Program-made: the position numbers and the translations under genes
Assembly: GCF_022836935.1 (NCBI RefSeq)
Contig: NZ_CP083239.1
Coordinates: 2,556,001-2,620,000, forward strand
DNA: 64,000 nt
Direction of reading: 5' to 3'
Origin: Ancylobacter polymorphus
GTDB lineage: Bacteria; Pseudomonadota; Alphaproteobacteria; Rhizobiales; Xanthobacteraceae
Shown: one piece after another, positions 11,166 through 30,000 of the stretch
Numbering within the stretch: the first letter of the stretch is position 1
Layout of the letters: each line of letters starts with the position of its first letter
The notes under the pieces: model-generated
Seen by the model: only the letters and a program-made list of their open reading frames with translations
Told to the model about the DNA's origin: nothing
The model's database searches: none

Positions 11166-11199
11166 CCGGGCGCCGCGAGATTGGGGGCGCCGTCACGGC

Positions 11200-13712: not shown

Positions 13713-13879
13713 TCCGTGCGTCGTCGTCCGTTTCAGGTGCCCTTGGGCGTCAGGGGTCTTGCTGGCGACCGCGCGGGCGGAAATGGTGGCCGCGCGGCCC
13801 CCCGGGGGATTCGCCGCCTTCCGGCAGGGAGGGGTGAACCGCGCGCCGGACCAACGACATGCCGAGAGAATCACTCGCG

Positions 13880-14860
13880 ATGAGCCTCGACCTTACTCTT
13901 GGTTTAACCCTGGCGGCGCTGCTGTTCGAGGTCGCCTTCGGCTATCCCTCCTTTTTGCTCGCCCGGATTGGCCACCCGGTGATGTGGATCGGCCGGCTGA
14001 TCGGCGCTCTCGACCGCCATGTCAACCGCGACGCCGCCGCCCCGCGCGAGCGGCGCCTCGCTGGCGTCGGGGCGCTGGTGCTGATCGTGGCGGTGAGCGG
14101 CGGTGCCGGGCTGCTGGTTCAGGGCCTCGCGATGAAGGTGCCGTTCATCGGCCTGCTGCTGGCCGGGCTCGCCGGCTCCAGCCTGCTGGCGCAGCGCAGC
14201 CTCTACCAGTTCGTCGGCGCGGTGGCGGACGGGCTGGAAGTGAGCCTCGATGAGGGGCGGCGGGCGGTGTCGCACATTGTCGGCCGCGACCCGGACAAGC
14301 TCGACGAGGCCGGGGTGGCGCGGGCGGCGATCGAGAGCCTGGCGGAGAACTATTCCGACGGCGTGGTGGCGCCGGCCTTGTGGATGGCGGTCGGCGGGCT
14401 GCCGGGCGCGGCGATCTACAAGGGGGTGAACACCTCCGACAGTATGATCGGCCATCGCGACGCGCGGCACCTTCATTTCGGCTGGGCCTCGGCGCGGTTC
14501 GACGATGTGATCAACCTGCCGGCCTCGCGGCTGGCGGGCCTGCTGATCGTCGCCGGGGCGCTGTTCGTGCCGGGCGCTTCGTCGCGCCGGGCATGGCAGG
14601 CGATGCGGCGCGACGCCCGCCGCCACCGCTCGCCCAATGCCGGCTGGCCGGAGGCGGCGATGGCCGGCGCGCTCGGCATCGCCATCGCCGGGCCGCGCCA
14701 TTATGGCGGCAAGCTCTCCGTCGACGGGCTGATGGGCGAGGGCGGGCGCTATGAATGCACCGCGGCCGACATCCGCCGCGCGCTCGCCCTCTACCGCGCG
14801 GCGGATGCGGTGATGCTGGCGCTGGTGGCCGGGCTGGCGCTGGTCGCTTGGGGGTGGTGA
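13880..14860 (+). CDS. cobD: Adenosylcobinamide-phosphate synthase CobD (CbiB)
   Basis: This 326-residue, multi-spanning membrane protein starts at the ATG at 13880; an in-frame ATG at 13859 is less well placed. The CobD/CbiB signature ARAAIESLAENYSDGVVAPALW is present, with NTSDSMIGHRDARHLHFGWASARFDDVINLPASR later. The enzyme joins (R)-1-aminopropan-2-ol phosphate (or aminopropanol) to adenosylcobyric acid, giving adenosylcobinamide (phosphate), and works in the inner membrane. It stands apart from the other + strand cob genes and is convergent with cobQ, whose product feeds it. The naming follows the Pseudomonas denitrificans scheme, where CobD equals CbiB, not the Salmonella decarboxylase. 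Confidence 0.95.
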   Translation: MSLDLTLGLTLAALLFEVAFGYPSFLLARIGHPVMWIGRLIGALDRHVNRDAAAPRERRLAGVGALVLIVAVSGGAGLLVQGLAMKVPFIGLLLAGLAGSSLLAQRSLYQFVGAVADGLEVSLDEGRRAVSHIVGRDPDKLDEAGVARAAIESLAENYSDGVVAPALWMAVGGLPGAAIYKGVNTSDSMIGHRDARHLHFGWASARFDDVINLPASRLAGLLIVAGALFVPGASSRRAWQAMRRDARRHRSPNAGWPEAAMAGALGIAIAGPRHYGGKLSVDGLMGEGGRYECTAADIRRALALYRAADAVMLALVAGLALVAWGW

Positions 14861-14880
14861 GGAAGGGCCTCACTTCCGCG

Positions 14881-14966
14881 CCCTCATCCGCGGGCGTGAC
14901 CCGCGGATCCAGAGAATGCCGGCGCTCCCGGCCGCTGGGTGCCCGGGTCAGGCCCGGGCATGAGGG
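14881..14966 (+). repeat. Palindromic repeat, family B copy 2, overlapping the end of cobQ
   Basis: CCCTCATCCGCGGGCGTGAC opens the element, which closes with GCCCGGGTCAGGCCCGGGC (14941-14959) and ATGAGGG. The closing arm contains the cobQ stop codon (14948-14950) and its last codons. Confidence 0.8.
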
Positions 14967-16438
14967 ACGTTCGCCGCGATTTCCAGCAGCCGGTCGAGAT
15001 CGACATGGCGTTCCAGATGCGCGGCCAGCGCGTCGAGCGCCGCCTCCACCCCGGCCTCATAGTCGAGCCCGCTCGGCGGCGCGCCGAGCGTGGCCAACCA
15101 ATGCGCGCGCTGGCGGTCGTCCGAGAACAGGCCGTGCGCATAGGTGCCGATGACGCGCCCGTCCGGGGAGACCGCGCCTTCCGGCCCGGCGCCGTCGATA
15201 AGCGCGAAGGGCCGGGCGCGGCCGGGGCCCTCGGTCACGCCCATATGCATCTCGTAGCCGGAGAAGGGCGCGCCGCCGGCCGACCCGGTGACGGCGACGA
15301 GCCGCTTTTCGCCTGAAAGCACCGTGTCGACCTCCAGAAGGCCGAGGCCGGGCACGGTGCCGGGCGGGCCTTCCACGCCGTCGGGGTCGGAGAGGCTGCG
15401 CCCCAGCATCTGGTAGCCGCCGCACAGGCCGAGCACCCGCCCGCCGCGCCTGATATGCGCGAGAAGGTCGATGTCCCAGCCCTCGCGGCGGAAATCGGCG
15501 AGGTCGGCAATGGTGGATTTCGAGCCCGGCAGCAGGATGAGCGCGGCATCGGCGGGCAGCGGCGTGCCGGGCCGCACGCGCACGACGTCGACGCCCGGTT
15601 CGGCCTCCAGCGGGTCGAGATCGTCGAAATTGGCGATGCGCGGCAGCAGCGGCACGGCGATCTTCACCCGCGCACCGGGCTTCGCCGGCGTCGGAGCGTC
15701 GAGCGCCAGCGCGTCCTCCGCCGGCAGGCGGCGGGCGTCGGTGAAGAAGGGGATGAGGCCGAGCGCCTCCCAGCCGGTGCGGGACGCGATCGCCTCCATG
15801 CCGGCGGCGAAGAGGGCCGGGTCGCCGCGAAAGCGGTTGACGAGGAAGCCGCGTATCATCGCCGCGTCGTCCTCCGGCAGCACCGCCTTGGTGCCGACGA
15901 GCGAGGCGATGACGCCGCCGCGGTCGATGTCGCCGATGAGGATGACCGGCACCTGCGCCGCGCGGGCGAAACCCATATTGGCGATGTCATTGGCGCGAAG
16001 ATTGATTTCCGACGCCGAGCCGGCGCCTTCCACCAGCACGAGGTCGGCCTCGGCCCGCAGCCGCCCATAGCTGTCCAGCACGGCTGCCATGAGGGCGGGT
16101 TTGAGCTTCTGGTAGTCCGCCGCCTTCGCCGTGCCCTGCGCCCGGCCCTGCACGATGACCTGCGCGCCGATCTCGCTCTGGGGTTTGAGCAATACAGGGT
16201 TCATATGGACGGAAGGGGCCACGCCGGCGGCGCGGGCCTGCAGCGCCTGCGCGCGGCCGATCTCGCCGCCATCGGGTGTGACGGCGGCGTTGTTCGACAT
16301 GTTCTGCGGCTTGAACGGGCGCACGATGAGCCCGCGCCGGGTGAAGGCGCGGGCGAGGCCGGCGACGATGAGCGACTTGCCGACATCCGAGCCGGTGCCC
16401 TGGAACATAAGGGCGAGGGGAGAGCGGGGGGCGGTCAT
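14948..16438 (-). CDS. cobQ: Cobyric acid synthase CobQ
   Basis: This 496-residue glutamine amidotransferase has an N-terminal dethiobiotin-synthetase-like ATPase domain ([54 protein letters not shown]). The C-terminal class-I-like amidotransferase domain has nucleophile Cys in [13 protein letters not shown] and His in GTYAHGLF. It amidates four side chains of adenosylcobyrinic acid a,c-diamide to give adenosylcobyric acid. Length fits (about 485-500). The last codons (HARA-stop) lie inside a family-B repeat, and a family-C repeat begins only a few bases before the start codon. The substrate comes from CobO and the product goes to CobD, both neighbours. Confidence 0.97.
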
Positions 16439-16441
16439 GCA

Positions 16442-16550
16442 CCCTCTCCCCGTCGGGGAGAGGGATGGGGTGAGGGGAATCGGGGCCGATGAGCCGGGAG
16501 CCCTCTCACCGGCCCGCTGCGCGGGCCACCTCTCCCCGACGGGGAGAGGG
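16442..16550 (+). repeat. Palindromic repeat, family C pair
   Basis: Two head-to-head units: 16443-16478 (palindrome plus GATGGGGTGAGGGG) and 16501-16550. The second carries the longer form with GGCCCGCTGCGCGGGCC between the two halves. Confidence 0.85.
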
Positions 16551-16587
16551 CAGGACGGCCCGCAACAGGAAGGCTCGCACAGGTGGT

Positions 16588-16617
16588 GGATCCCCGGGGC
16601 GAGCCCGGGGATGAGGG
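16588..16617 (+). repeat. Palindromic repeat, family B half copy
   Basis: GGATCCCCGGGGCGAGCCCG GGGATGAGGG matches one half of the family-B element. It lies just before the end of the TM2 gene. Confidence 0.6.
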
Positions 16618-16628
16618 GGCGGCCGGCC

Positions 16629-16853
16629 TCAGCCGCGCCTTGCTTCGAGATAGTCGACGCGGCGCTCCAGATTGGCCTCGCGCACCATGCCGGGGATGAG
16701 GAACAGGTCGATGATCTGGCCGATGCCGAGCAGGCCGACCGTCAACAGCCACAGGGCGCCGGTCCAGTAGCGGCCGGTATAGAAGCGCTGGATGCCGCAC
16801 ACGCCGATCAGGCCGAAGCACCAGAACAGATAGGCGATGGGGGTGGAACGCAT
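16629..16853 (-). CDS. TM2 domain-containing small membrane protein
   Basis: This 74-residue protein (start ATG 16853, [11 protein letters not shown]) has two hydrophobic segments. They are separated by the TM2 signature [25 protein letters not shown], followed by [19 protein letters not shown] short charged tail ([17 protein letters not shown]) ends it. TM2 proteins are widespread two-helix membrane proteins with no agreed biochemical role. It sits between cobQ and cobO on the same strand, but no cobalamin link is known for the family, so its place here may be incidental. The frame continues to 16907, but 16853 gives the standard TM2 N-terminus. Confidence 0.8.
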
Positions 16854-16976
16854 CGAAGCGTTTCTCCATGAAAGAACCACGCCGCAACAGCCGGCGTCGG
16901 CTTTCACATAGGAATGCCGTTGCGCAATTGCGAGATCGCCGCCACGGCCCGCGTGCCGATTTCGATCGGTCGCGCA

Positions 16977-17597
16977 TCAGAATTCGATGCCCTTCTGCGC
17001 CTTCACCCCGGCTTTGAAATGGTGCTTGACGAGCCCCATCTCGGTGACGAGGTCCGCCGCCTCGATCAGCTCCGGCTTGGCGTTGCGGCCGGTGACGACG
17101 ATGTGCAGCCCCGCGCGCCGGTCGCTGAGCGCGGCCACCACCTCGGGCAGGGGGAGATAATCGTAGCGCAGGGCGATGTTCAGCTCGTCCAGAATGATCA
17201 GCCCGAAGGCGGGGTCGTCCATCATCTCGCGCGCCTTGTCCCAGGCGCGGCGGGCGGACGCGATGTCGCGGGCGAGGTCCTGCGTCTCCCAGGTGAAGCC
17301 CTCGCCCATGGAATGCCATTCCACCCGCGCGCCGAAGCTCTCCAGCGCCCGGCGCTCGCCGGAATCCCACGCGCCCTTGATGAACTGGACGACGCCGACC
17401 CTCAATCCGTCCGGCTGGCCGAGCGTGCGCAGCGCTAGGCCGAAGGCGGCGGTGGACTTGCCCTTGCCGGGGCCAGTATGGACGAGCAGCAGGCCCTTTT
17501 CGACGGTCTTTTCCGCCACTTCCGCGTCCTGCACCGCCTTGCGCTTTTCCATCTTGGCGCGGTGGCGGGCGGCCTCCTCGGGGGAAATCTCGCTCAT
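16977..17597 (-). CDS. cobO: Cob(I)yrinic acid a,c-diamide adenosyltransferase CobO
   Basis: This 206-residue protein has the CobO/BtuR P-loop LLLVHTGPGKGKSTAAFGLALR, the acceptor region VGVVQFIKGAWDSGERRALE, and the Asp-containing LIILDELNIALRYDYLP and VVTGRNAKPELIEAADLVTEM. It transfers the adenosyl group from ATP to the Co(I) of cobyrinic acid a,c-diamide. Its start codon overlaps the cobP stop by 4 nt (ATGA), so the two are translationally coupled with cobP first. Length fits (about 200-215). Confidence 0.97.
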   Translation of the reverse strand: MSEISPEEAARHRAKMEKRKAVQDAEVAEKTVEKGLLLVHTGPGKGKSTAAFGLALRTLGQPDGLRVGVVQFIKGAWDSGERRALESFGARVEWHSMGEGFTWETQDLARDIASARRAWDKAREMMDDPAFGLIILDELNIALRYDYLPLPEVVAALSDRRAGLHIVVTGRNAKPELIEAADLVTEMGLVKHHFKAGVKAQKGIEF

Positions 17598-18109
17598 GCG
17601 GCGCTTCCTTTCACGTAAAGCGGCAGGCCGGCGACGGTGAACACCACGCGCTCCGCGCGGGCGGCGACCATCTGGTTGAGCCGTCCCTGCGCGTCGCGGA
17701 ACCGGCGGGCCAGCGCATTGTCCGGCACGATGGAGAGGCCGACCTCGTTGGAGACGGCCACAATCGGCCCGTCATGGGCGGCGAGCGCTTCCACCAGCGC
17801 GGCGGACTCCGTGGCAAGGTCAGCTTCCGCCAGCAGCCGGTTGGAAAGCCAGAGGGTGAGGCAATCGACCAGCACCGGCCGGCCGGGCGGCAGCGCCTTG
17901 AGCGCGGCGGCGAGGTCGTGCGGGGCGTCCCGCGTCTCCCAGCCTTCCGCGCGGCGGGCGCGGTGCTCGCCAATGCGCGCGGCCATCTCGTCGTCGAAGG
18001 CCTGCGCGGTGGCGAGGTAGCACCAGGGCGGCGGCAGGGCGGTGACGAGGCCTTCGGCATAGGCGCTCTTGCCCGAACGCGCGCCGCCGAGAACGAGCGT
18101 CAGCGCCAT
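17594..18109 (-). CDS. cobP: Adenosylcobinamide kinase / adenosylcobinamide-phosphate guanylyltransferase CobP (CobU)
   Basis: The protein has 171 residues from the ATG at 18109. It shows the RecA-like CobU fold: P-loop LVLGGARSGKSAYAE, then RRAEGWETRDAPHDLAAAL with the guanylylation region, VLVDCLTLWLSNRLL and VAVSNEVGLSIVPDNALARRFRD. The bifunctional enzyme phosphorylates adenosylcobinamide and then activates it as the GDP derivative for lower-ligand attachment. Length matches (about 170-180). The frame stays open upstream to 18550, but that part is antisense to the riboswitch and has no homology-like sequence, so it was excluded. It is the first gene of the cobP-cobO pair and divergent from the riboswitch-led cobW unit. 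Confidence 0.96.
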   Translation of the reverse strand: MALTLVLGGARSGKSAYAEGLVTALPPPWCYLATAQAFDDEMAARIGEHRARRAEGWETRDAPHDLAAALKALPPGRPVLVDCLTLWLSNRLLAEADLATESAALVEALAAHDGPIVAVSNEVGLSIVPDNALARRFRDAQGRLNQMVAARAERVVFTVAGLPLYVKGSAA

Positions 18110-18234
18110 GGCAGGCAGACCGGGGCAAAGCGGGGCGGCATCGTCATCGGCTCCCAATGGGGCGGCGGCGGGCGAGCGGCGGACTATAGCGGCGGCGCGG
18201 GGGCGGGCAACCGCCGGGGGCCGGGGCCTGCGGT

Positions 18235-18263
18235 TTGACTTTGCCGGCCAAGCCTCCTTTAGT
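18235..18263 (+). promoter_or_regulatory. Sigma-70-type promoter ahead of the cobalamin riboswitch
   Basis: TTGACT (18235-18240) and TTTAGT (18258-18263) are separated by exactly 17 nt. They place a transcription start near 18270, right at the 5' edge of the riboswitch. The match is -35 5/6 and -10 4/6. Confidence 0.55.
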
Positions 18264-18270
18264 GGCCGCG

Positions 18271-18455
18271 ACCGACGGTTTCCTCCCGCGAGGGAGGGAC
18301 GAAGAGGGAATGCGGTGCGGGGCTCTCGGGCCCCAATTCCGCGGCTGCCCCCGCAACTGTAAGCGGCGAGCCTCAGCCGGAAGCCACTGGAGACCTCTCC
18401 GGGAAGGCGGCGACGAGGCGGCGACCCGCGAGCCAGGAGACCTGCCGGCGGTCCG
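18271..18455 (+). ncRNA. Cobalamin (B12) riboswitch
   Basis: The conserved core elements occur in the right order. A GGGAATGCGG-type stem lies near 18306. The B12 box region follows with GCGGCTGCCCCCGCAACTGT (18341-18360) then AAGCGGCGAG, then GCCACTGG (18383), GGGAAGGCGGCGA (18401) and GACCCGCGAGCCAGGAGACC TGCC (18423-18446). The aptamer precedes cobW by about 120 nt. Adenosylcobalamin binding normally lowers expression, so high B12 should shut off cobW-cobN-cobG-cobH-cobI-cobJ. Exact ends are approximate. Confidence 0.95.
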
Positions 18456-18515
18456 GTCGTGCGTGCCGGCGGGGTGCCCGGCAGACAGGCAGAGACGCGC
18501 CACGGCGCGGCTTCG

Positions 18516-18535
18516 CGCGGGGATTCCTCCCCGCG
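18516..18535 (+). promoter_or_regulatory. Hairpin between riboswitch and cobW, possible expression platform
   Basis: An 8-bp stem CGCGGGGA/TCCCCGCG with a TTCC loop lies about 28 nt before the cobW GTGGAG ribosome site. No U-run follows, so translational rather than terminator control is the better guess. Confidence 0.4.
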
Positions 18536-18576
18536 ACCGACGCATCCCACGAATCCGTCGCCCGTGGAGATGCCGC

Positions 18577-19638
18577 ATGACTACCGATTCCCGCACCGCC
18601 CTTGATCGTGTCCCCTGCACCATCGTCACCGGCTTTCTCGGCTCGGGGAAAACGACGCTGATCCGCCATGTGCTGGAGCATGCGCGCGGCAAGAGGCTGG
18701 CGGTGATCGTCAACGAATTCGGCGATGTCGGCATCGACGGCGACATCCTCAAAGGCTGCGGCATCGACACCTGCCCGGAAGAGAACATCGTCGAACTCGC
18801 CAATGGCTGCATCTGCTGCACCGTGGCGGATGATTTCGTGCCGGCGCTCGACGCCATTCTCGCGCGGGAGCCGAAGGTCGATCACATCCTGATCGAGACC
18901 TCCGGCCTCGCTCTGCCCAAGCCCCTGGTGCAGGCCTTCCACTGGCCGGCGATCAAGAGCCGGGTGACGGTGGACGGCGTGGTGGCGGTGGTGGATGGCG
19001 AGGCGCTGGCCTCCGGCCGCGTGGCGCATGACCACGACGCGCTCGCCGCTCAGCGCGCCGCCGATGACAGCCTCGACCATGACGACCCGATCGAGGAAGT
19101 GTTCGACGACCAGATCGCCTGCGCCGATCTCGTCATCCTGACCAAGGCCGACCTGATCGATGATGCCGGCCAGGCCAAGGCCCGCGCCGCGCTCGACGCC
19201 GAACTGCCCAAGGGCGTGCGGGTGGTGAGCGTGACCGAGGGGCGGATCGACCCGGCGATCCTGATGGGCCTCGGCATCGGCACCGAGAACGACATCGAGA
19301 ACCGCAAGACGCATCACGATGACGAGCTCGACCACGACCACGACGATTTCGACAGTTTCGTCGTCGCGGTGCCTGAAATCACCGACCCGGCCGAGTTCGC
19401 GGCACGGGTGGAGCGGGCGGCGGAGGAGGCCGACGTGCTGCGGGTGAAGGGGTTTTTGCCCGTCGCCGGCAAGTCGATGCGGTTGCTGGTGCAGGCGGTC
19501 GGCCCGCGCGTGGCGCATCATTTCGACCGCCCCTGGGGCGAAGCTGAGCGCACCGGGCGCCTCGTCGCCATCGGGCTGAAGGGCCTCGACCGCGCCAAGG
19601 TGGAGGCGATCCTCGCCGGGGAGCGCGTGGCGGCGTGA
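18577..19638 (+). CDS. cobW: CobW GTPase (COG0523 metal chaperone)
   Basis: This 353-residue protein (ATG 18577, GTGGAG 8 nt upstream) has the G3E-family P-loop TIVTGFLGSGKTTLIRHVL, the metal site GCICCTVADD (CxCC), ETSGLALPKPL and the base motif LTKADL. Between GTPase and C-terminal domains lies a His/Asp-rich stretch (THHDDELDHDHDDFD), suited to cobalt or other divalent metal binding. CobW loads Co2+ for cobaltochelatase CobNST. Being first behind the B12 riboswitch and directly before cobN supports this job. A family-A repeat fills the gap to cobN. The frame is open upstream through the riboswitch but that region is not coding. Confidence 0.96.
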   Translation: MTTDSRTALDRVPCTIVTGFLGSGKTTLIRHVLEHARGKRLAVIVNEFGDVGIDGDILKGCGIDTCPEENIVELANGCICCTVADDFVPALDAILAREPKVDHILIETSGLALPKPLVQAFHWPAIKSRVTVDGVVAVVDGEALASGRVAHDHDALAAQRAADDSLDHDDPIEEVFDDQIACADLVILTKADLIDDAGQAKARAALDAELPKGVRVVSVTEGRIDPAILMGLGIGTENDIENRKTHHDDELDHDHDDFDSFVVAVPEITDPAEFAARVERAAEEADVLRVKGFLPVAGKSMRLLVQAVGPRVAHHFDRPWGEAERTGRLVAIGLKGLDRAKVEAILAGERVAA

Positions 19639-19644
19639 GCCTTC

Positions 19645-19740
19645 CGTCATCCCGGACGGCCGCGAGGCCGATCCGGGATCGCCGGCCGGAATGAACGGCA
19701 ACCGATCCCGGCCCGGCGCTGCGTGTCGGCCGGGATGACG
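19645..19740 (+). repeat. Palindromic repeat, family A copy 3 (96 bp)
   Basis: It starts CGTCATCCCGGACGGCC and ends CGGCCGGGATGACG, with inner GATCCGGGATCGCC and ACCGATCCCGG arms. It lies within the cobW-cobN transcription unit. Confidence 0.85.
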
Positions 19741-19762
19741 ATTTCAGGAGACCCGCCTTCCC

Positions 19763-22700
19763 ATGCACATTCTCGCCACCAGCTCCTCCAGCCTCGACGA
19801 TCTCGTCGAGCCGGTCGATCTCGGCCAGACGCCGGGCGAGGTGGTGGTGGTGTCCTTTGCCGACAGCGATCTCGGCGCGCTCGCCACCGCCATGGCGCGG
19901 GCGCAGGCGCGGGAGGAAGAGCGGGGCGAGGACCTGCCGAGCCTGCGCCTCGCCAATCTGCGCGATCTGCGCCACCCGATGTCGGTCGACCTCTGGATCG
20001 ACAAGGTGGCGATCCATGCCCGCATCGTGGTGGTGCGGCTGCTCGGCGGGCTCGACTGGTGGCGCTACGGCGTCGACCGGCTCAGCGCCGAGGCGCGGGC
20101 ACGGGGCTTTCACCTCGCCGTGCTGCCGGGCGAGGACCGCGACGATCCCCGCCTTGCCGAGGCCTCCACCCTGAGCGAGGCGGAGCTCGCCACACTGCTC
20201 GGCTATTTCCGCGCCGGCGGGCCGGGCAATATGGCCGCGCTGCTGCGGCTGCTTGCCACTTATGCGGGGCGGGCGATGCCCCCGCCGTCCGCGGCGCAGA
20301 ACCTGCCGCTGGCCGGGTTTTATGCGTGGGGCGGGGCGTCCCCCTCACCCAACCCTCTCACCGGCGGGGAGAGGGCTTTGGCCGGCTTCCCACCGCCGTT
20401 TTCTTCCCCCTCTCCCCCTCGGGGAGAGGGTCGGGGTGAGGGGGCTTCTGCCGCCGCCATCCCGATCATCTTCTACCGCTCCATGGCGCTGGCGGGCGAT
20501 ACCGCGCCGGTGGAGGCCCTGTGTGCGGCGCTGATCGCGCGCGGGCTCGATCCGCGCCCGATCTTCGTCGCCAGCCTGAAGGAGCCAGTCTCCATCGGCT
20601 TCCTGCGCGATGCGCTGGCGGGTATGGACCCGGCCGCGATCCTGACCCTGACCGCCTTCGCCGCCGCCGATCCCGGCGAGGCGACAGTGCTGGACGCGCC
20701 CGGCGTGCCGGTGCTGCAAGCGGTCATCGGCACCACCAGCCGCACCGGCTGGACGGAGGGCGTGCGCGGGCTGACCAGCGCCGATCTCGCCATGCATGTG
20801 GTGCTGCCCGAACTCGACGGGCGGGTGCTGGCGGGGGCGCTCTCCTTCAAGGCGCCGCAGGAGATGGACGCCGTGCCCGGCTTCGCCGCGCTGGTGAACG
20901 CGCCGGTGCCCGACCGTGTGGCGCAGGTGGCAGAGCGCGTCTCTCGCCTGGTGCGGCTGCGCCAGACCCCGCGCGGCGCGCGCCGCGTCGCCGTGCTGAT
21001 GCCGGACTACGCCGGCGCTCCCGGCCGCACTGGCTGGGCAGTGGGGCTCGACGTGCCGGCGAGCGTGCGGGCGCTGCTGGCCGATTTGAAGGCCGCCGGC
21101 TACCGGGTGGAAGACGAGCCTCGCGATGAGACGGCGCTAGTGGCGGCGGTGAGGGGCGGGTCGCCCCCTCTCCCCGCGGGGGAGAGGGATGGGGTGAGGG
21201 GTGCTTTTCCCTCTGCCCCCGTTCTACCCCTCACCCAACCCTCTCCCCGCCGGGGAGAGGGCTTTGCGGGGCACGACGCCGTCCTCTCCCTCGCCGCCTA
21301 CCGCGCCCATCTCGCCACGCTGCCGTCCGAGGCGGTGGCGGCGGTCGAGGCCGCCTGGGGAGCGCCGGAAGACGACCCGGAGTTGATCGACGGGGCCTTC
21401 CGCTTCCGCGCTGCGCGCTTCGGCCATGTCACCGTGGCGCTGGCGCCGGAGCGCGGCGATGCGGCGGACCGGCGGGCGCAGTATCACGATCCCGCCCTGC
21501 CGCCGCGCCACGGGCTCATCGCCTTCGGCCTGTTGCTGCAGCAGACCGCCGACGCTCTCGTGCATATGGGCGCGCATGGCACGCTGGAATGGCTGCCCGG
21601 CAAGCATGTGGCGCTGACCCGCGCCTGCTTCCCCGAAATCGTGCTCGGCGCCCTGCCGGTGGCCTACCCGTTCATTGTCTCCAACCCCGGCGAGGCGGCG
21701 CAGGCCAAGCGGCGGATCGCGGCGGTGACGCTCGGCCATCTGCCGCCGCCGACGCAGGAGGCCGGCCTCGCGGACGACGCCGCTAGCCTGGAGCGGCTGG
21801 TGGATGAATATGCCGAGGCCGACGGGCTCGACCGCCGCCGCCGCGAACGCCTCGCCCGGCTGATCGTGGAGGAGGCGACGCGCACCGGCTTTGCCCGCGA
21901 CGCCGGGCTGGACACGGGCGCCGACCCGGAGGAGGCCCTCAGACAGATCGACGCCTTTCTCTGCGACATCAAGGAGATGCGGCTGAAGGACGGTTTCCAT
22001 GTCTATGGCCGTGGCCCCTGCGGGGAGGCCGAGCGCGACGGGCTGCTGGCGGCGCTGGACGCCCGCCGGGTGTCCGCCGGCCCGGCCGGCGCGCCGGGGC
22101 GTGGGCGGACCGACGTGATGCCGACCGGGCGCAACCTGTTCACCAGCGACCCCCGCGCTCTGCCGACGCCCACCGCCATGGATCTCGGCCGGCTGGCGGC
22201 AGAGGAGATCGTGCGCGCCTATGCGCAGGCGCATGGCGACTGGCCGCGTTCGCTCGTGCTCGACCTCTGGGGCAGCGCGACGCTGCGCACCGGCGGCGAG
22301 GAGATCGCGCAGGGCCTGGCGCTGATCGGCGCAAGGCCGGTGTGGGACCCGGGTTCGGGCCGGGTCACCGGCATCGAGGTTCTGCCGCCGGCGGTGCTGG
22401 GGCGCCCGCGCGTCGATGTCACCTTTCGCATATCGGGGCTATTCCGCGACCTGTTCCCGGCGCAGATCGCGCTTCTCGATGCCGCGCTGCGGGCGGTGGC
22501 GCGGCGCGAGGAGAGCGAGGAGGAAAACCCGCTGCGCGCGGCGGGCGAGGGGGCGGCGCGCATTTTCGGCACCGCGCCGGGGGCCTATGGCGCCGGGCTG
22601 GAACGCCGCGCCGACGGAATGGAGCGCGACGCGCTGGCCGACGCCTATCTCGCCAGCGCCTCGCATGCCTATGGCGGGGCGGAAGGCGCGGGCCGGGCGA

Positions 22701-23245
22701 CAGGCGATTTCGCCGCGCGGGTGGCGGCGGCGGATATGCTGGTGCATGGCGCCGACGATCCCGGCCGCGACCTCTTGGAAGGCGATGCCGATCTCGCCTT
22801 TATCGGCGGTTTCGCGGCGGCGGCGGAAAAGCTCGGCCGCGCACCGGACCTCGTGGTGCTCGACACCTCCGATCCCGCCCGGCCGCAGGCCCGCCCTTTG
22901 GCGGCGGCGCTGGCGCGGATCGTGCGCGGGCGGGTGAACCCGCGCTATCTCGACGGGCTGAAGCGGCACGGCCCGCGTGGGGCGGCGGAAATGGCGGAGA
23001 CGGTGGACCGGCTGATCGGCTTCGCCGAGGCGACGCGGGCCGTGCCCGGCCATCTGATCGACGCGCTGCACGGCGCCTATGTCGACGATGCCGGCATGCG
23101 CGCCTTCCTGATGGACGCCTCGCCCGAGGCGGCGCGCTTCATCGCCGCCCGGTTCGACGGCGCGCGCGACAAGGGCCTTTGGCACCCGCGCCGCAACGAT
23201 GTCGGCGCCGGGCTCGCGCAGCTTGCCGGGGAGGCGGCGGAATGA
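19763..23245 (+). CDS. cobN: Cobaltochelatase subunit CobN with two in-frame repeat insertions
   Basis: This 1160-residue large subunit of the aerobic, ATP-dependent cobaltochelatase CobNST inserts Co2+ into hydrogenobyrinic acid a,c-diamide. Family landmarks are seen throughout: the N-terminal SLDDLVEPVDLGQT, later HMGAHGTLEWLPGKHVAL, YPFIVSNPGEAAQAKRR, LDLWGSATLRTGGEEIAQGL and the C-terminal SHAYGG..., NPRYLDGLKRHGPRGAAEMAETVD. Two family-C repeat pairs are translated inside it (about residues 193-227 and 468-500), giving Pro/Gly/Arg-rich peptides (e.g. [27 protein letters not shown]) that look like surface loops. AGGAG lies 12 nt before the ATG. The stop overlaps the cobG start (ATGA). cobS and cobT are not in the window. 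Confidence 0.95.
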   Translation: MHILATSSSSLDDLVEPVDLGQTPGEVVVVSFADSDLGALATAMARAQAREEERGEDLPSLRLANLRDLRHPMSVDLWIDKVAIHARIVVVRLLGGLDWWRYGVDRLSAEARARGFHLAVLPGEDRDDPRLAEASTLSEAELATLLGYFRAGGPGNMAALLRLLATYAGRAMPPPSAAQNLPLAGFYAWGGASPSPNPLTGGERALAGFPPPFSSPSPPRGEGRGEGASAAAIPIIFYRSMALAGDTAPVEALCAALIARGLDPRPIFVASLKEPVSIGFLRDALAGMDPAAILTLTAFAAADPGEATVLDAPGVPVLQAVIGTTSRTGWTEGVRGLTSADLAMHVVLPELDGRVLAGALSFKAPQEMDAVPGFAALVNAPVPDRVAQVAERVSRLVRLRQTPRGARRVAVLMPDYAGAPGRTGWAVGLDVPASVRALLADLKAAGYRVEDEPRDETALVAAVRGGSPPLPAGERDGVRGAFPSAPVLPLTQPSPRRGEGFAGHDAVLSLAAYRAHLATLPSEAVAAVEAAWGAPEDDPELIDGAFRFRAARFGHVTVALAPERGDAADRRAQYHDPALPPRHGLIAFGLLLQQTADALVHMGAHGTLEWLPGKHVALTRACFPEIVLGALPVAYPFIVSNPGEAAQAKRRIAAVTLGHLPPPTQEAGLADDAASLERLVDEYAEADGLDRRRRERLARLIVEEATRTGFARDAGLDTGADPEEALRQIDAFLCDIKEMRLKDGFHVYGRGPCGEAERDGLLAALDARRVSAGPAGAPGRGRTDVMPTGRNLFTSDPRALPTPTAMDLGRLAAEEIVRAYAQAHGDWPRSLVLDLWGSATLRTGGEEIAQGLALIGARPVWDPGSGRVTGIEVLPPAVLGRPRVDVTFRISGLFRDLFPAQIALLDAALRAVARREESEEENPLRAAGEGAARIFGTAPGAYGAGLERRADGMERDALADAYLASASHAYGGAEGAGRATGDFAARVAAADMLVHGADDPGRDLLEGDADLAFIGGFAAAAEKLGRAPDLVVLDTSDPARPQARPLAAALARIVRGRVNPRYLDGLKRHGPRGAAEMAETVDRLIGFAEATRAVPGHLIDALHGAYVDDAGMRAFLMDASPEAARFIAARFDGARDKGLWHPRRNDVGAGLAQLAGEAAE
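20341..20444 (+). repeat. Palindromic repeat, family C pair inside cobN (first)
   Basis: Units at 20341-20375 (CCCCTCACCCAACCCTCTCA then CCGGCGGGGAGAGGG) and 20407-20444 (CCCTCTCCCCCTCGGGGAG then AGGGTCGGGGTGAGGGG) stand head to head. They are translated in the cobN frame. Confidence 0.9.
21164..21261 (+). repeat. Palindromic repeat, family C pair inside cobN (second)
   Basis: Units at 21164-21201 and 21227-21261 stand head to head. The CCCCTCACCCAACC half is read here as LTQPSP, a different frame from the first insertion, where the same sequence gives SPNPL. Confidence 0.9.
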
Positions 23246-24435
23246 GCGCGCTCTCCATGCGCCGGGGCGCCTGCCCGAGCCTGCCGGAACCGATGCAAAC
23301 CGGCGACGGGCTGCTGGCGCGGCTGCAGCCTCTGGCACCACTGACGCTGGACCAGCTCGCCGGGCTGGCGCTTCTGGCGGCGGAACGCGGCAATGGCATC
23401 CTTGAGGTGACGGCGCGCGGCAAGCTGCAATTGCGCGGGCTGACGCCGGCCACCGTGCCGGGTCTTCCCGAGGCGGTGGCGGCGCTCGGCATCGACGTGC
23501 CACAGGGCTTTCCGGTGGAAGTGAGCGCGCTGGCGGGGCGCGACCCCGAGGGGCGGTTCGACCCGCGCCCGCTGGCGCGGGCGATCTCCGAGCGCGCCGC
23601 CCCGCTGGTGCCGCATCTGGCGCCGAAGGCCTCCGTGGTGGTGGATGGCGGCGGGCTGTTCCGGCTCGGCGGGCTGAAGGCGGATATCGCGGTGAGCGCG
23701 GCGGAGGGGGGGCTTTCCCTCACGCTCGCCGGCACGCCGTTCGGCGTGATGGAACAGGCGCGGGCGGCGGCGGTGGTGGTCGCGCTGCTGCAGCGGTTGG
23801 CGGCGTGCGGCCCGACGGCGCGGATGGCGGAACTTGTGGCGGCGGAGGGGATCGAGAGCCTGCGCGCCGCCTATGGCCTCGCCTCGCCCGTCGCCGCACC
23901 GGGGGAGGGTTTCGACCCGGTGGGTCTGCACGCGCTCAGCGACGGAAGCGTTGCGCTCGGAATCGGCCTCGCCTTCGGTCAGGTCCGGGCGGCGGCGCTG
24001 GCGAATCTGATCGACGCCGCGCGTCGGGCGGGCGTGACCGAGGTCGAGCCCGCAGCCGGGCGGGCGCTGCTGTTGGTCGGGCTCACGCCCGAGGCGGCGG
24101 AAACCCTGCGCGCGATAGCGGCGGGGCTCGGTTTCCTCACCGATGCCGGCGACCCGCGCCGGCGTGTCTTCGCCTGCGCCGGGCGCCCGGCCTGCGCCTC
24201 CGCGCGGCTCGACACCCATGAACTCGCGGCGACGCTGGTGCCGCTGCTGGGTGGGCGCGATCTCCATGTGTCGGGCTGTCCGAAGGGCTGCGCGCACCCG
24301 GCAAAAGCGGCGCTGACCATTGTGGGGCTGGACGAAGGGGCGGGTCTCGTGGTCGAAGGCACGCCGCGCGACGTGCCCGCCCGCATCGTGCCTCCCGCGC
24401 GCCTGCGCGAGACGATTGAGAAGGATCTGGCCTGA
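23242..24435 (+). CDS. cobG: Precorrin-3B synthase CobG
   Basis: This 397-residue protein has sulfite/nitrite-reductase-like half domains. The N-terminal half starts MRRGACPSLPEPMQTGDGLLARL with GILEVTARGKLQLRGL (ferredoxin-like repeat). The C-terminal half carries the cofactor cysteines in CAGRPACASARLDTHEL and HVSGCPKGCAHP, ligands of the [4Fe-4S] cluster. CobG is the O2-dependent monooxygenase that hydroxylates precorrin-3A to precorrin-3B, which marks the pathway as aerobic. Its ATG overlaps the cobN stop by 4 nt. The following cobH begins with GTG immediately after the cobG stop, so the genes are tightly coupled. Confidence 0.95.
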   Translation: MSALSMRRGACPSLPEPMQTGDGLLARLQPLAPLTLDQLAGLALLAAERGNGILEVTARGKLQLRGLTPATVPGLPEAVAALGIDVPQGFPVEVSALAGRDPEGRFDPRPLARAISERAAPLVPHLAPKASVVVDGGGLFRLGGLKADIAVSAAEGGLSLTLAGTPFGVMEQARAAAVVVALLQRLAACGPTARMAELVAAEGIESLRAAYGLASPVAAPGEGFDPVGLHALSDGSVALGIGLAFGQVRAAALANLIDAARRAGVTEVEPAAGRALLLVGLTPEAAETLRAIAAGLGFLTDAGDPRRRVFACAGRPACASARLDTHELAATLVPLLGGRDLHVSGCPKGCAHPAKAALTIVGLDEGAGLVVEGTPRDVPARIVPPARLRETIEKDLA

Positions 24436-25071
24436 GTGTCCACCCCGTTCGACTATGAGCGCGACGGCAATGCGATCTATGAGCGCTCCTTCGCCATCAT
24501 CCGCGAGGAGGCCGAGCTCGGCCGCTTCACGCCCGAGGAGGCGGATGTGGCGGTGCGGATGATCCATGCCTGCGGGCTAGTGGAAGCCGCCTTCGCCATC
24601 GATTTCGCCCCCGATCTGGTGCGGGCCGCCCGCAACGCGCTCAAGGCCGGCGCGCCCATCCTGTGCGACGCGCAGATGGTGGCGCATGGCGTCACCCGCG
24701 CCCGGCTGCCGGCGCAGAACGAGGTGATCTGCACATTGCGCGATCCTGAGGTGCCCGCTCTCGCCGAGCGGCTCGGCACCACCCGCTCGGCCGCCGCGCT
24801 GGAGCTGTGGCGCGACAGGATGGAAGGCGCGGTGATCGCCATCGGCAACGCCCCGACCGCCTTGTTCCGCCTCCTGGAAATGCTCGACGCCGGCGCGCCG
24901 AAGCCGGCGGCGATTCTGGGTATCCCGGTCGGCTTTGTCGGCGCGGCGGAATCCAAGGACGCGCTGGCGCTGGGCGAGCATGGCGTGCCGTGGCTGGTGG
25001 TGCGCGGAAGGCTCGGGGGTAGCGCCATGGCGGCGGCGGCGGTGAACGCACTGGCGAGGCCGGGCCTATGA
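24436..25071 (+). CDS. cobH: Precorrin-8X methylmutase CobH
   Basis: This 211-residue protein starts with GTG directly abutting the cobG TGA. It contains the CobH core: VRMIHACGLVEAAFAIDF with His44 at the catalytic position (His43 in Pseudomonas denitrificans), GAPILCDAQMVAHGVTRARLPAQNEVICTL, and IGNAPTALFRLLEMLDAGAPKPAAILGIPVGFVGAAESK. It moves the methyl group from C11 to C12 to give hydrogenobyrinic acid. The stop overlaps cobI by 4 nt. Confidence 0.97.
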   Translation: MSTPFDYERDGNAIYERSFAIIREEAELGRFTPEEADVAVRMIHACGLVEAAFAIDFAPDLVRAARNALKAGAPILCDAQMVAHGVTRARLPAQNEVICTLRDPEVPALAERLGTTRSAAALELWRDRMEGAVIAIGNAPTALFRLLEMLDAGAPKPAAILGIPVGFVGAAESKDALALGEHGVPWLVVRGRLGGSAMAAAAVNALARPGL

Positions 25072-25805
25072 GCGAGATCGCGCAGGGGCGGCTGATCGGC
25101 GTCGGCGTCGGGCCGGGCGACCCGGACCTCATCACGCTGAAGGCGGTGCGGGCGCTCGGCGCGGCGGATGTGGTCGCCTATTTCGCCAAGCTCGGCAATG
25201 CCAGCCATGCCCGCGCCATCGCCCATCCGCATTTCCGCGCCGGGGCGGAGGAACTGCCGCTCGGCTACCCCGTGACCACGGAAATGCCGAAGGACGAGGC
25301 GCCCTATCGCACGGCGATCACGGGGTTTTACGAGGCGGCGGCGGAAGCGGTGGCGGCGCATCTCGCGGCCGGGCGCACCGTGGCGGTGCTCTCCGAGGGC
25401 GATCCGATGTTCTACGGCTCCTACATGCATCTGCATGTGCGGCTGGCGCATCGTTATCCGACCGAGGTCATCGCCGGCGTCACCGGCATGTCCGGCTGCT
25501 GGTCGCAGGCGGGCACCCCGATCGCCCAGGGCGACGATGTGCTGAGCATTCTGCCGGGCACGCTTGCCGAGGACGAACTGGCGCGCCGGCTCAAAGGCAC
25601 CGATGCGGCGGTTATCATGAAGGTGGGGCGCAATTTGCCGAAGATCCGCCGGGCGCTGGCCATTGCCGGGCGGCTGGAGCGGGCGCTCTATGTCGAGCGC
25701 GGGACGATGACGGGCAGCCTGTGCGAAAGGCTGGAGACGCGCGGGGATGCCCCGGCGCCCTATTTCGCCATCGTGCTGGTGCCAGGCTGGGAGACGAGGG
25801 CATGA
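25068..25805 (+). CDS. cobI: Precorrin-2 C20-methyltransferase CobI
   Basis: This 245-residue SAM-dependent tetrapyrrole methylase has GVGVGPGDPDLITLKAVRAL at the N-terminus, VAVLSEGDPMFYGSYMHLHVRL in the SAM pocket, and VTGMSGCWSQAGTPIAQGDD and VIMKVGRNLPKIRRAL typical of C20 enzymes. It makes precorrin-3A from precorrin-2. It is coupled to both neighbours by ATGA overlaps. Length matches CobI (about 245). Confidence 0.97.
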   Translation: MSEIAQGRLIGVGVGPGDPDLITLKAVRALGAADVVAYFAKLGNASHARAIAHPHFRAGAEELPLGYPVTTEMPKDEAPYRTAITGFYEAAAEAVAAHLAAGRTVAVLSEGDPMFYGSYMHLHVRLAHRYPTEVIAGVTGMSGCWSQAGTPIAQGDDVLSILPGTLAEDELARRLKGTDAAVIMKVGRNLPKIRRALAIAGRLERALYVERGTMTGSLCERLETRGDAPAPYFAIVLVPGWETRA

Positions 25806-26563
25806 GCAAGGGCAGATTGTTCGTCATCGGCCTCGGCCCCGGCGAGGCGCGCTTCCTCACCCCGGAGGCGAGCGCGGCGCTCAGCGCCGCCGAGGCGCTT
25901 TATGGCTACGAACCCTATCTCGCCCGCGTACCGGTGCGCGAGGGGCAGACGCGCCACCCCTCCGACAATCGCGAGGAACTGGTGCGCGCCGGCGCGGCGC
26001 TGGCCCATGCCGCCGCCGGCGCCACGGTGGCGATGGTCTCGGGCGGCGATCCCGGTGTGTTCGCCATGGCGGCGGCGGTGATCGAGGCGATCGAGGCCGG
26101 GCCGGCGGAATGGCGGGCGCTCGATCTCGCCATCGTGCCCGGCATCACCGCCATGCTGGCGGTGGCGGCGAAGTGCGGCGCGCCGCTGGGGCATGATTTC
26201 TGCGCCATCTCGCTCTCGGACAATCTGAAGCCCTGGGAGGTGATCGAGAAGCGGCTGCGCCTCGCGGCGCAGGCGGGGTTCGCCATGGCGTTCTACAACC
26301 CGGTGTCGAAAGCCCGCCCGCACCAGCTCGACACCGCTTTCGAGATTCTGCGCGCCGAGCTGCCGGCGAGCGTGCCGGTCATTTTCGGCCGGGCGGTGGG
26401 GCGGCCGGACGAGCGGATGCGGGTGGTGCCGCTCGGCCATGCGCGCGGGCACATGGCCGACATGGCGACCTGCATCATCGTCGGTTCGCCGGAGACGCGG
26501 CTGGTGGAACGCCCCGGCCTGCCGGCGCTGGTCTACACGCCGCGCCGCGCCGGGGAGGAGTGA
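25802..26563 (+). CDS. cobJ: Precorrin-3B C17-methyltransferase CobJ
   Basis: This 253-residue protein starts at 25802 (MSKGRLFVIGLGPGEARFLTPEA), overlapping cobI by 4 nt. The tetrapyrrole methylase motifs are GLGPG, ATVAMVSGGDPGVFAMAAAV and FAMAFYNPVSKARPHQLDTAFEIL. The DNLKPWEVIEKRL segment is typical of CobJ/CbiH. It methylates C17 and drives ring contraction, giving precorrin-4. It is the last gene of the riboswitch-led co-directional run. A family-C repeat pair separates it from the opposed cobK. Confidence 0.97.
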   Translation: MSKGRLFVIGLGPGEARFLTPEASAALSAAEALYGYEPYLARVPVREGQTRHPSDNREELVRAGAALAHAAAGATVAMVSGGDPGVFAMAAAVIEAIEAGPAEWRALDLAIVPGITAMLAVAAKCGAPLGHDFCAISLSDNLKPWEVIEKRLRLAAQAGFAMAFYNPVSKARPHQLDTAFEILRAELPASVPVIFGRAVGRPDERMRVVPLGHARGHMADMATCIIVGSPETRLVERPGLPALVYTPRRAGEE

Positions 26564-26583
26564 TGCGGGCGGTGGCCGTCACT

Positions 26584-26679
26584 CCCTCGCCCCGTCGGGG
26601 AGAGTGTCGGGGTGAGGGGGAGGGCCGGCCCTTGCCCGCAGGCGCCCCTCACCCAACCCTCTCCCCGACGGGGAGAGGG
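26584..26679 (+). repeat. Palindromic repeat, family C pair, between cobJ and cobK
   Basis: Units at 26584-26620 and 26645-26679 stand head to head. The right unit ends immediately next to the cobK stop codon (26680-26682). Confidence 0.9.
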
Positions 26680-27462
26680 CTAGGAGGTTCGGCTGAGTGT
26701 CTCCAGCCAGTCCAACACCCCGTCCACGCTGTCGACCGTCTCGACCTCGGGCCGGGGCGGGCGGGTGACCATGATCACCTCGATGCCGAGCGCGCGGGCG
26801 GCTTTGATCTTGCCATAGGTCGCCTCCCCGCCGCTGTTCTTGGACAGGAGGGCGTCGATGCGGTGGGTTTTGAGCAGCGCGTGCTCGTCCGCCTCGGGGA
26901 ACGGCCCGCGCGCCTCGATATAGCGCGCCTGCGGCAGGGCGAGCGGCGGGTCGACGGGGTCGATGCTGCGCACGAGATAGGCGTGCTGCGGCGCGGCCTC
27001 CAGCGCGCGCACCTCATTGCGGCCGAGCGCCACCAGCACCCGGCGCGGGGCGGGGCCGAGCTTTTCCACCGCTTCGGCAATGTCCGTGGCCTGCGTCCAG
27101 AGATCGCCGGGCTGCCGCTGCCATGCGGGGCGCAGCAGGGCGATGAGCGGCACGCCGGCGCGGCGGGCGGCCTCAGCGGCGTTGTGCGACATGGTGGCGG
27201 CGAAGGGATGGGTGGCGTCGATCACCGCGTCGATGCCCTCGGTTTTCAGATAGGCTTCGAGACCCTCCACGCCACCGAAGCCGCCGGAGCGGGTGGGGGC
27301 CTCCACAGGCAGCGGGTTGCGCGTGCGCCCGGCCAGCGACAGGCTCACCGCGAATCCCCCGCGCGCGGCGAGCCGTGCCGCGAGGTCGCGGGCCTCATTG
27401 GTGCCGCCGAGGATGAGCAGGCGCGGGACGCCGGCCTCCCGGCTCTTATCGGATGCGTTCAT
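26680..27462 (-). CDS. cobK: Precorrin-6A reductase CobK
   Basis: This 260-residue protein has an NADPH-binding N-terminus (RLLILGGTNEARDLAARLAARGG). The CobK/CbiJ signatures are IDAVIDATHPFAATMSHNAAEAARRAGVPLIALLRPAWQ and the C-terminal IDALLSKNSGGEATYGKIKAARALGI. It reduces precorrin-6A to dihydro-precorrin-6B. It is the only minus-strand gene inside the cobW-cobB stretch. Its ATG (27462-27460) overlaps the divergent cobL ATG (27461-27463) in the tetranucleotide CATG, so no intergenic promoter exists. No alternative downstream Met precedes the Rossmann motif. Confidence 0.95.
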   Translation of the reverse strand: MNASDKSREAGVPRLLILGGTNEARDLAARLAARGGFAVSLSLAGRTRNPLPVEAPTRSGGFGGVEGLEAYLKTEGIDAVIDATHPFAATMSHNAAEAARRAGVPLIALLRPAWQRQPGDLWTQATDIAEAVEKLGPAPRRVLVALGRNEVRALEAAPQHAYLVRSIDPVDPPLALPQARYIEARGPFPEADEHALLKTHRIDALLSKNSGGEATYGKIKAARALGIEVIMVTRPPRPEVETVDSVDGVLDWLETLSRTS

Positions 27463-28723
27463 GCCCGACCGTGAAACCATCGCCTCCGCCGCGTCAACCG
27501 CTGACGACCGCTGGCTCACCCTTGTCGGCATCGGCGAGGATGGGCTCGATGGCCTTTCCCCCGCCGCGCGGGCGGCGGTGGAGGCGGCGGAAATCGTGTT
27601 CGGCGGGGCGCGGCATCTGGCGCTGGCCGGCGATGCGGTGAAGGGCGAGGCGCGGGCCTGGCCGAGCCCGTTCGCGCGCGGCATCGAGGCGGTGCTGGCG
27701 CTACGCGGGCGGCGGGTCTGCGTGCTGGCTTCCGGCGACCCGTTCCTGCACGGTGTCGGCGCCACGCTGGCGCGGCATGTGCCGGCGGAGGAGATGCGGG
27801 TGTTTCCCGCGCCGTCCGCCTATAGCCTCGCCTGCGCCCGGCTCGGCTGGCCGCTGGCGGAGGTGACCTGTCTTACCGTGCATGGCCGCTCGCTCGATCT
27901 GGTGCGGGCGCATCTTTACCCCGGTCGGCGGCTGCTGGTGTTGACCTCGGACGGCGCCGGGCCGGGCGAGATCGCGCGCCTGCTGGCGGAAGGCGGCTTT
28001 GGCGGCTCCCATCTCACCGTGCTGGAAGCGCTGGGCGGCCCGCGCGAGCTTGTGCGCCGCGCTCGGGCCGAGGGCTTCGCGCTCGATGATATCGACGCGC
28101 TGAACGTGCTCGCCATCGAGGTGGCCGCGGGGGAGGGCGCGCGCATCATTGCCCGGGCGCCGGGCCTGCCGGACGCGCTGTTCGAACATGACGGGCAATT
28201 GACCAAGCGCGAGATCCGCGCGGTGACGCTTTCCGCCCTCGCGCCCCGCCGGGGGGAACTTCTGTGGGACATCGGCGCCGGCGCCGGTTCGGTCGGCATT
28301 GAATGGATGCTGGCCGACCCCTCGCTCGCCGCCATCGGCATCGAGGAGCACCCGGAGCGGGCGGCGCGGGCGCGGCGCAATGCGGCCGCGCTCGGCGTGC
28401 CCGGACTGGAGATCGTCGAGGGGCGTGCGCCCGAGGCGCTTTCCGGCCTGCCGGCGCCGGCCGCGATTTTCCTCGGCGGTGGCGCGGGCGATGAAGGCGT
28501 GATGGACGCCGCGCTGGCCGCGCTCAAGCCCGGTGGGCGGCTGGTCGCCAATGCGGTGACGCTGGAGACCGAGGCGCTGCTCATCGCCCGCCATGCGGCG
28601 CTGGGGGGAGACCTCACGCGCCTCTCCGTCGCCCGCGCCGTGCCGGTGGGTGGGCTCACCGGCTGGCGGCCGGCGATGCCGGTGACGCAATGGAGCTGGG
28701 TGAAGCCGGGGGGCGCGCCGTGA
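27461..28723 (+). CDS. cobL: Precorrin-6Y C5,15-methyltransferase (decarboxylating) CobL
   Basis: This 420-residue fusion has an N-terminal CbiE-like tetrapyrrole methylase (about 20-215; [42 protein letters not shown]). The C-terminal part is a CbiT-like Rossmann methylase (about 235-415; [22 protein letters not shown] and [33 protein letters not shown]). It methylates C5 and C15 and decarboxylates the C12 acetate to give precorrin-8X. The start codon overlaps that of the divergent cobK by 2 nt. The stop overlaps the GTG of cobE (GTGA). Confidence 0.96.
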
Positions 28724-29115
28724 TCGTCGCCGGAGTCGGCAGCCGGCGCGGCGTCACCTCGGAGGAGGTGTGCGCGGCTGTGCGCGGGGCGATGGAGCGC
28801 CACGGCGTGAAGCTGTGCGACATCTCGCTGATGGCGACCCCGGCGGCGAAGGGCAGCGAGGCCGGCATCATCAAGGCGGCGCTCGATCTCGGCCTGTTGC
28901 TGGTCATGGTGCCGCAGCGCCAGCTGGAAGCGGCGGGCACGCGGGCGATGAGCCATTCCGACCGGGTCGTGGCGCTGATGGGCGTGCCCTCGGTGGCGGA
29001 AGCCTCGGCACTGGCCGTGGCCGGGCGGCGCTCGACGCTGATCGGGCCGCGCTTCGTGCTGGGGCCGGTGACCTGCGCCTTCGCGCGCGAGGCGGAGAAG
29101 GGAGAAGCACCGTGA
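28720..29115 (+). CDS. cobE: Cobalamin biosynthesis protein CobE
   Basis: The protein has 131 residues from the GTG at 28720, which overlaps the cobL stop as GTGA. An ATG at 28690 would overlap cobL by 34 nt and adds only [10 protein letters not shown]. The sequence ([87 protein letters not shown]) matches CobE, the stand-alone equivalent of the CbiG C-terminal domain. Its exact biochemical role in the aerobic route is not settled. It is coupled to cobM by another GTGA overlap. Confidence 0.93.
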
Positions 29116-29870
29116 CCGTGCATTTCATCGGCGCCGGGCCGGGCGCGGCCGACCTGATGACGCTGCGCGGGCGCGACCTCATCGCCCGCTGTCCGGTGTG
29201 CCTCTATGCCGGCTCCATCGTGCCGCCGGAGGTGCTGGCCTGGTGCCCGGCGGGCGCGCGCATCGTTGATACCGCGCCGCTGTCGCTCGACGAGATCGAG
29301 GCGGAGTTCGTCGCGGCGCAGGCGTTGGGGCAGGATGTGGCGCGGCTGCAGTCGGGCGACCTCTCGATCTATTCGGCGGTGGCGGAGCAGATTCGGCGGC
29401 TGGAGAAACACGCCATTCCCTACACGCTCACCCCCGGCGTGCCGGCCTTCGCGGCGGCGAGCGCGGTGCTGGGGCGCGAATTCACCGTGCCGGGGCTGGC
29501 GCAGAGCCTGGTCATCACCCGCGTTTCCGGCCGCGCTTCGGCGATGCCGGCAGGCGAGACACTGGCGGCCTTTGGCGCGACCGGGGCGACGCTCGCCATC
29601 CATCTCGCCATTCACGCGCTGGGTGAGGTGGTGGCGGAACTGACCCCGCTCTATGGCGCGGTGTGCCCCGTCGCCGTGGTGGTGGAGGCGAGCCGGCCGC
29701 GCGAGCGGGTGATCCGGGGCACGCTGGGCGATATCGTCGCGCAGGTGGCAGCGGCGCCGGTGGAGCGCACCGCGCTCATCATGGTGGGTAAGGCGCTGGC
29801 GCCGGAGGATTTCCGCGAGAGCGCGCTCTATGACGCCGCCTATCAGCGCCGCTTCCGGGGGCGGGAATGA
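29112..29870 (+). CDS. cobM: Precorrin-4 C11-methyltransferase CobM
   Basis: This 252-residue protein starts with GTG overlapping the cobE stop. Tetrapyrrole methylase motifs are [61 protein letters not shown] and [22 protein letters not shown]. The LQSGDxSIYGA form identifies the C11 enzyme (CobM/CbiF). It produces precorrin-5. A family-C repeat pair separates it from cobB on the same strand. Confidence 0.97.
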
Positions 29871-29890
29871 GGGGGCGCGGCTTGCCTTTG

Positions 29891-30000
29891 CCTCTCCCCG
29901 TCGGGGAGAGGTGGCCCGCGCAGCGGGACGGTGAGGGGTGCCTGAGTTGCCGCGCTCGACTGCCCCTCACCCCATCCCTCTCCCCGTCGGGGAGAGGGGG
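29891..30000 (+). repeat. Palindromic repeat, family C pair, between cobM and cobB
   Basis: Units at 29891-29939 (long form with GGCCCGCGCAGCGGGACGG) and 29963-30000 stand head to head. They occupy most of the 157-bp gap inside the cobL-cobB run. Confidence 0.9.

Follow-up and report, generated by a model that had tools for sequence, protein, structure and literature searches.

How do palindromic DNA repeats come to lie inside the reading frame of a cobaltochelatase gene, and what becomes of them there? The question is raised by cobN of Ancylobacter polymorphus, which lies in a 64,000-nucleotide stretch of contig NZ_CP083239.1 (the window, meaning the whole stretch analyzed) and is open over all 1160 codons, spanning two pairs of family C repeats, as the first-pass annotation had claimed. 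Comparison with relatives points to the answer developed below: two CobN loops in Ancylobacter are refilled in frame by several kinds of palindrome, and the repeat-derived stretch at either loop differs from one related species to the next.

The cobN product scored 1547.6 bits against the NCBIfam CobN model NF008973 (cut-off 1235), and GC content at the three codon positions (0.79/0.55/0.87) is as in coding DNA here. A backup second copy was rejected because no other full cobN match was found in the genome, the other match being repeat sequence alone; a search for plasmid relatives gave 14 records, none of which covered 80% of the query. An artefact, either assembly errors in the repeats or a cobN pseudogene held open by chance in GC-rich DNA, is very improbable: open frames are indeed favored by GC-rich sequence, and in one genus member (G012) the frame is split and site B contains an N run, but 29 genus genomes keep the frame open across the sites, some of them in one contig, codon-position GC is coding-like and the core of the protein is conserved. 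A cobalamin riboswitch (RF00174, 18259-18463, 120 bits) lies upstream of cobW and cobN. It was the only Rfam match at gathering thresholds in the whole window, and a known RNA element was therefore rejected as the identity of the repeats.

In the family C unit, the stem, CCCTCTCCCC...GGGGAGAGGG, comes after CCCTCACCC(C)AA. Allowing at most one mismatch, the stem pattern matched 46 times per strand in the 5.2 Mb genome from which the window was taken and the reversed control did not match at all, in agreement with the view that the inserts are in-frame insertions of a dispersed palindromic repeat. Both pairs had been described as head-to-head, which proved incorrect: the layouts are unlike, tail-stem...stem-tail at site A and stem-tail...tail-stem at site B, so that the tails point outward at the former and inward at the latter. 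The same repeat half is nevertheless read in two ways, as claimed, because the unit containing CACCCAACCCTCTC is in phase 2 at site A (SPNPL) and in phase 0 at site B (LTQPSP). The accompanying suggestion of openness holds insofar as more than one phase is used, but the element is not specially open. In 28 C clusters of at least two units (units joined at 250 bases), a mean of 2.6 of the six frames were open, compared with 3.7 in dinucleotide shuffles, and an element built for being read was rejected on this basis.

Table 1. Positions in the window of cobN, its two repeat-derived inserts and the element upstream
Feature	Position	Strand	Description
cobN	19763-23245	+	cobaltochelatase subunit CobN, 1160 aa; ORF, NCBIfam CobN equivalog, Pfam PF02514
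Site A insert	20340-20444		two family C units with tails pointing outward (CCCCTCACCC-stem ... stem-GGGGTGAGGGG); lies in residues 192-227
C unit stem, site A left	20353-20375	+	one mismatch to stem pattern
C unit stem, site A right	20408-20430	-	
Site B insert	21164-21261		two family C units with tails pointing inward (stem-GGGGTGAGGGG ... CCCCTCACCC-stem); lies in residues 467-503
C unit stem, site B left	21166-21188	-	
C unit stem, site B right	21239-21261	+	
D3-type element	19645-19740		CGTCATCCCGGACGGCC ... GGCCGGGATGACG, in the cobW-cobN gap

An AlphaFold2 model of CobN, built from a 53-row alignment, had a mean pLDDT of 83.2. Values below 50 (segments of at least three residues) were confined to residues 1-4, 192-227 and 467-503; the two inserts are thus the sole internal segments of this kind, and their placement in loops, proposed from the DNA at the outset, is borne out as predicted flexibility. 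Structure comparison placed CobN, ChlH and HmuS in the top rows, with solved CobN and ChlH among the matches. In solved CobN 9uk9 aligned to the model, residues 468-506 are missing and the site A stretch is shorter. Within the genus, the site A loop is 46 aa in the window compared with 12-17 aa in seven insert-free rows and 28 aa in G005. The site B loop is 52 aa compared with 14-20 aa in the insert-free rows (eight such rows of the 53-row alignment, with G025 set apart at 33 aa). In the 35 rows from outside the genus, site A spans 11-49 aa and site B spans 10-19 aa; we therefore regard A as probably a naturally variable loop and B as a short one.

Relatives contain further palindromes at these sites, which we call D1, D2, D3 and E. 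D1 and D2 have a tag, a 9 bp stem beginning with AT, a 5 nt loop and a CCA tail; D2 of G013 and G018 reads CGTC-ATGGCCGGG-CTTGG-CCCGGCCAT-CCA, and D1 of G008 has a CCTC tag variant and one stem mismatch. In D3 and E the loops are larger and the ends resemble CGTC or CCTC. The kind of D3 element found in the cobW-cobN gap of the window also occurs inside cobN, at site B of G010, G014 and G028. Exact-pattern counts in 30 genus genomes, with reversed patterns as the control (the D1/D2 core gave 0 to 2 control matches per strand and the other three patterns, C, E and D3, gave none), found C in 28 genomes, D3 in 21 and E in 12, seven of which have four or fewer E matches. The D1/D2 core is present in 28 of the 30, several of them with few matches that do not exceed the reversed-control maximum. 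Five genomes have at least 20 E matches, and each of them has E inside CobN; among the 24 others, only one does (Fisher 5e-5, uncorrected for kinship).

To compare the sites across the genus, 34 CobN sequences were aligned, 30 from Ancylobacter, the window's own among them (A. polymorphus, A. rudongensis, A. vacuolatus, A. aquaticus and others), and four from the family. G012 was excluded from the CobN counts and the tree for its N run and split frame, which leaves 29 genus rows, and site states were labeled by hand from the sequences together with a motif classifier. Site A is filled in 21 of the 29: C in 14, D1 in three, C plus D1 in two and E in two, with G025 labeled C by eye where the classifier gave nothing. 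Site B is filled in 18: C in six, E in five, D3 in three, D2 in three and E plus D2 in one, with G013, G018 and G021, which score for D1 and D2 alike, labeled D2. At least one insert is present in 22 members and both in 17; the seven with neither keep an intact cobN frame. The two sites are also the only ones, as no insertion longer than 14 aa was found elsewhere in the 29 genus rows and the family-defining motifs had no match in the rest of the 34 cobN sequences (105,483 bases). Relatives thus do carry equally long, unrelated loops at both sites, literally the observation that the first-pass annotation had named as grounds against its reading, but most of these loops are other palindromic families, which points to a hot spot shared across the genus and not to a single pair of insertions.

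Could the inserts be maintained for a function, with the peptide loop or an mRNA hairpin tuning CobN folding, translation rate or message stability? The predicted RNA hairpins are very stable, at -78.6 kcal/mol (z -5.1) for the site A insert and -78.3 kcal/mol (z -4.5) for the site B insert, with none of 200 shuffles equally stable in either case, and the same sites are occupied in many species. Against this, the seven members without inserts manage with an intact frame, the sequence, family and phase differ among close species, every row from outside the genus is short at site B, and the element has no special openness. We consider such a function quite unlikely.

The states change often. On a tree of the cobN core, built by a quick method from cobN itself with both sites removed, parsimony requires at least 12 changes of state at site A and at least 15 at site B; presence or absence alone requires eight at each. 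The window's genome (G000; C at both sites) is sister to G008 (D1 at site A, nothing at site B), and G015, next to them, has neither insert. The short alleles of G015, CCCCC|GAGGGG and CGTCATGACG, look like the scars that hairpin deletion might leave. Composites also occur: at site A of G019 and G010, the left unit of a C pair is followed by a D1 element, G009 and G006 have E next to sequence resembling C, and G020 has E plus D2. Separately, nested palindromes were seen, with inverted repeats inside the C stem loop (e.g., GACCAACATCGGATGCATCCGATGTTGG) and the frame open, in uvrC of G007 and G020 (L233, L228) and at cobN site A of G024 and G003 (L046, L047).

Some alleles may have come from other species. 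Much of one D1 spacer is common to G010, G023 and G008, and the affinity of G008 switches along CobN: at residues 263-292, near site A, it is 94% identical to G019 and 80% to its sister G000, whereas at residues 1-60 it is 77% identical to G019 and 94% to G000 (descriptive values from 21 chosen pairs, with no formal test). The shared spacer and the switch in identity together suggest that exchange between species is likely to be part of the turnover at the cobN sites.

The C repeats of the window's own genome were surveyed in the window and 26 further stretches, which gave 32 clusters when units less than 400 bases apart were joined; places at 2637012 and 4128164 were omitted. Whether a cluster lay within a gene was judged by codon-position GC, by protein reading for 12 frames and by NCBIfam for four. 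Four of the 32 were judged to be in frame inside real genes, two in cobN and, as the proposed search for further such genes went on to find, one each in glcE and uvrC. The UvrC frame is above its NCBIfam cut-off; for the glcE frame, GlcE was the best NCBIfam match, but its score of 264 bits falls below the cut-off of 284. Six of the 32 clusters fall within 19 kb around cobalamin genes (window 11141-29999), for which the Poisson value of six or more is 3e-9 in a region picked after the fact. A single C unit (L055:2489-2512) lies just upstream of cobT (432-2456; NCBIfam CobT 932 bits), a cobaltochelatase gene. A second C layout is common elsewhere, in which an inward-tailed C unit is followed by ACCGACCCGC..GCGGGCC and, 75-90 nt away, by an ACCTCTCCCC...GGGGAGAGG unit (e.g., L060:2513-2622); it is present in glcE and uvrC and absent from both cobN pairs.

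Among relatives, glcE shows swapping of the kind seen in cobN, and uvrC carries C elements in apparently different states of decay. At the glcE site, four of 30 genomes have C, three have D1, 22 have a stretch of 5-11 aa and G016 has an unclassified stretch of 27 aa; G008 and G015 have D1 where the window's genome has C. In uvrC, the C motif is present in 16 of 30 genomes and the other 14 have variable stretches of 31-77 aa, with no stops inside the best matches. We read the uvrC series as an old insertion decaying into a linker.

These alternations could also be produced by a targeted swap, in which a putative mobilizing or repair activity would place palindromes into or beside resident palindromes, the genic sites serving as docking points. 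The composites, with C plus D1, E beside C-like sequence and E plus D2, are what such an activity might leave, as is the presence of C in the window's genome and D1 in G008 and G015 at one glcE site, and many elements carry the outer motifs CCTCA...TGAGG or CGTCA...TGACG, as read from the sequences. The same pattern would, however, result from selection for tolerant loops combined with exchange between species; no candidate enzyme was found in a search limited to PF01797; and the glcE sites are mostly insert-free, hence a prior palindrome is not required. We regard a targeted swap as unlikely. More broadly, it is conceivable, although doubtful, that a putative activity swaps palindrome families, possibly through the shared outer motifs, and that the loops of CobN and GlcE, perhaps with those of other proteins, are its fixed docking sites. 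If so, palindromes would preferentially enter or adjoin existing palindromes, and exchange of mobile DNA would be a way in which disordered protein segments evolve.

The explanation that we favor, and consider probable, is recurrent, tolerated in-frame insertion at the two CobN loops, followed by loss, overwriting and exchange between species. Two flexible loops would tolerate foreign peptide, and dispersed short palindromic repeats (C, D1, D2, D3 and E) would land repeatedly in both. Selection would remove any insertion that disrupted the reading frame or the folding of the protein, so those that remain would be the ones read through as a disordered loop, presumably within a stable protein and probably without a selected function. 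Resident elements could then change by several routes: loss when a hairpin is deleted in frame, nesting or overwriting by an element of another family, or exchange between species when short stretches of cobN recombine. The simplest account of the pattern is selection that spares only tolerated insertions, and the inserts themselves are probably neutral. As to the mover of the elements, the RAYT-type transposase domain PF01797 (Y1_Tnp), the sole transposase family sought, was absent from all 30 genus genomes and detected in 5 of 14 named control genomes, and RAYT was rejected as the mover. In sum, the first-pass interpretation stands in part, for in-frame insertion, flexible loops, reading in more than one phase and a resemblance to Rickettsia palindromic elements (RPEs), and falls short on a common head-to-head layout and special openness.

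With about 30 genomes of one genus, many of them named type strains, filled, empty, scar-like, nested and swapped states can be seen at the same genic sites. This makes it testable how REP-like elements move without a known transposase and how often they enter genes, and whether disordered segments are born from mobile DNA and then decay to ordinary linkers, as the uvrC series suggests.

Among known systems, RPEs are protein-coding palindromes of 105-146 bp in Rickettsia (PMC2229807). The Ancylobacter elements share with these, and with other protein-coding palindromes and MITEs, dispersed palindromic DNA of ~100-150 bp placed in frame inside conserved protein genes (PMC2229807): here cobN twice, glcE and uvrC, with the frames open in relatives. 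They differ from RPEs in sequence and in a host genus that is free-living, and in Ancylobacter several families alternate at the same two sites of one gene. REP/REPIN sequences moved by RAYT are likewise short, dispersed palindromic units that form inverted pairs, but the genus genomes lack the Y1_Tnp transposase and C lacks a GTAG tag. Intragenic GTAG and CGTC REPs are closer. The part of the account by Di Nocera and others (2013; PMC3733652) consulted here describes units and dimers in frame, the dimers mostly 20-30 aa, with targets that include UvrABC genes. It also reports a uvrA that holds two dimers, and a recB site near which two Xanthomonas species have different REPs. It defines CGTC REPs by a terminal CGTC, TGTC or CCTC tag, an 8-9 bp stem beginning with AT, a 4-5 nt loop and a CCA-like tail, and D1 and D2 fit this description when compared by eye. 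Family C matches neither the GTAG nor the CGTC type: it has neither tag, and its stem does not start with AT as that of a CGTC REP does. In the same part of that account, we found neither a cobN target nor four or more kinds turning over at two fixed sites across a genus, and among the matches listed for the open-licence literature, none dealt with palindromes inside genes of Ancylobacter or inside cobN, or with several families that turn over genus-wide at the same genic positions. Palindromes that code for protein are therefore known, as are intragenic REPs, and what looks like a new variation on them is the turnover of many families at genic sites that stay fixed.
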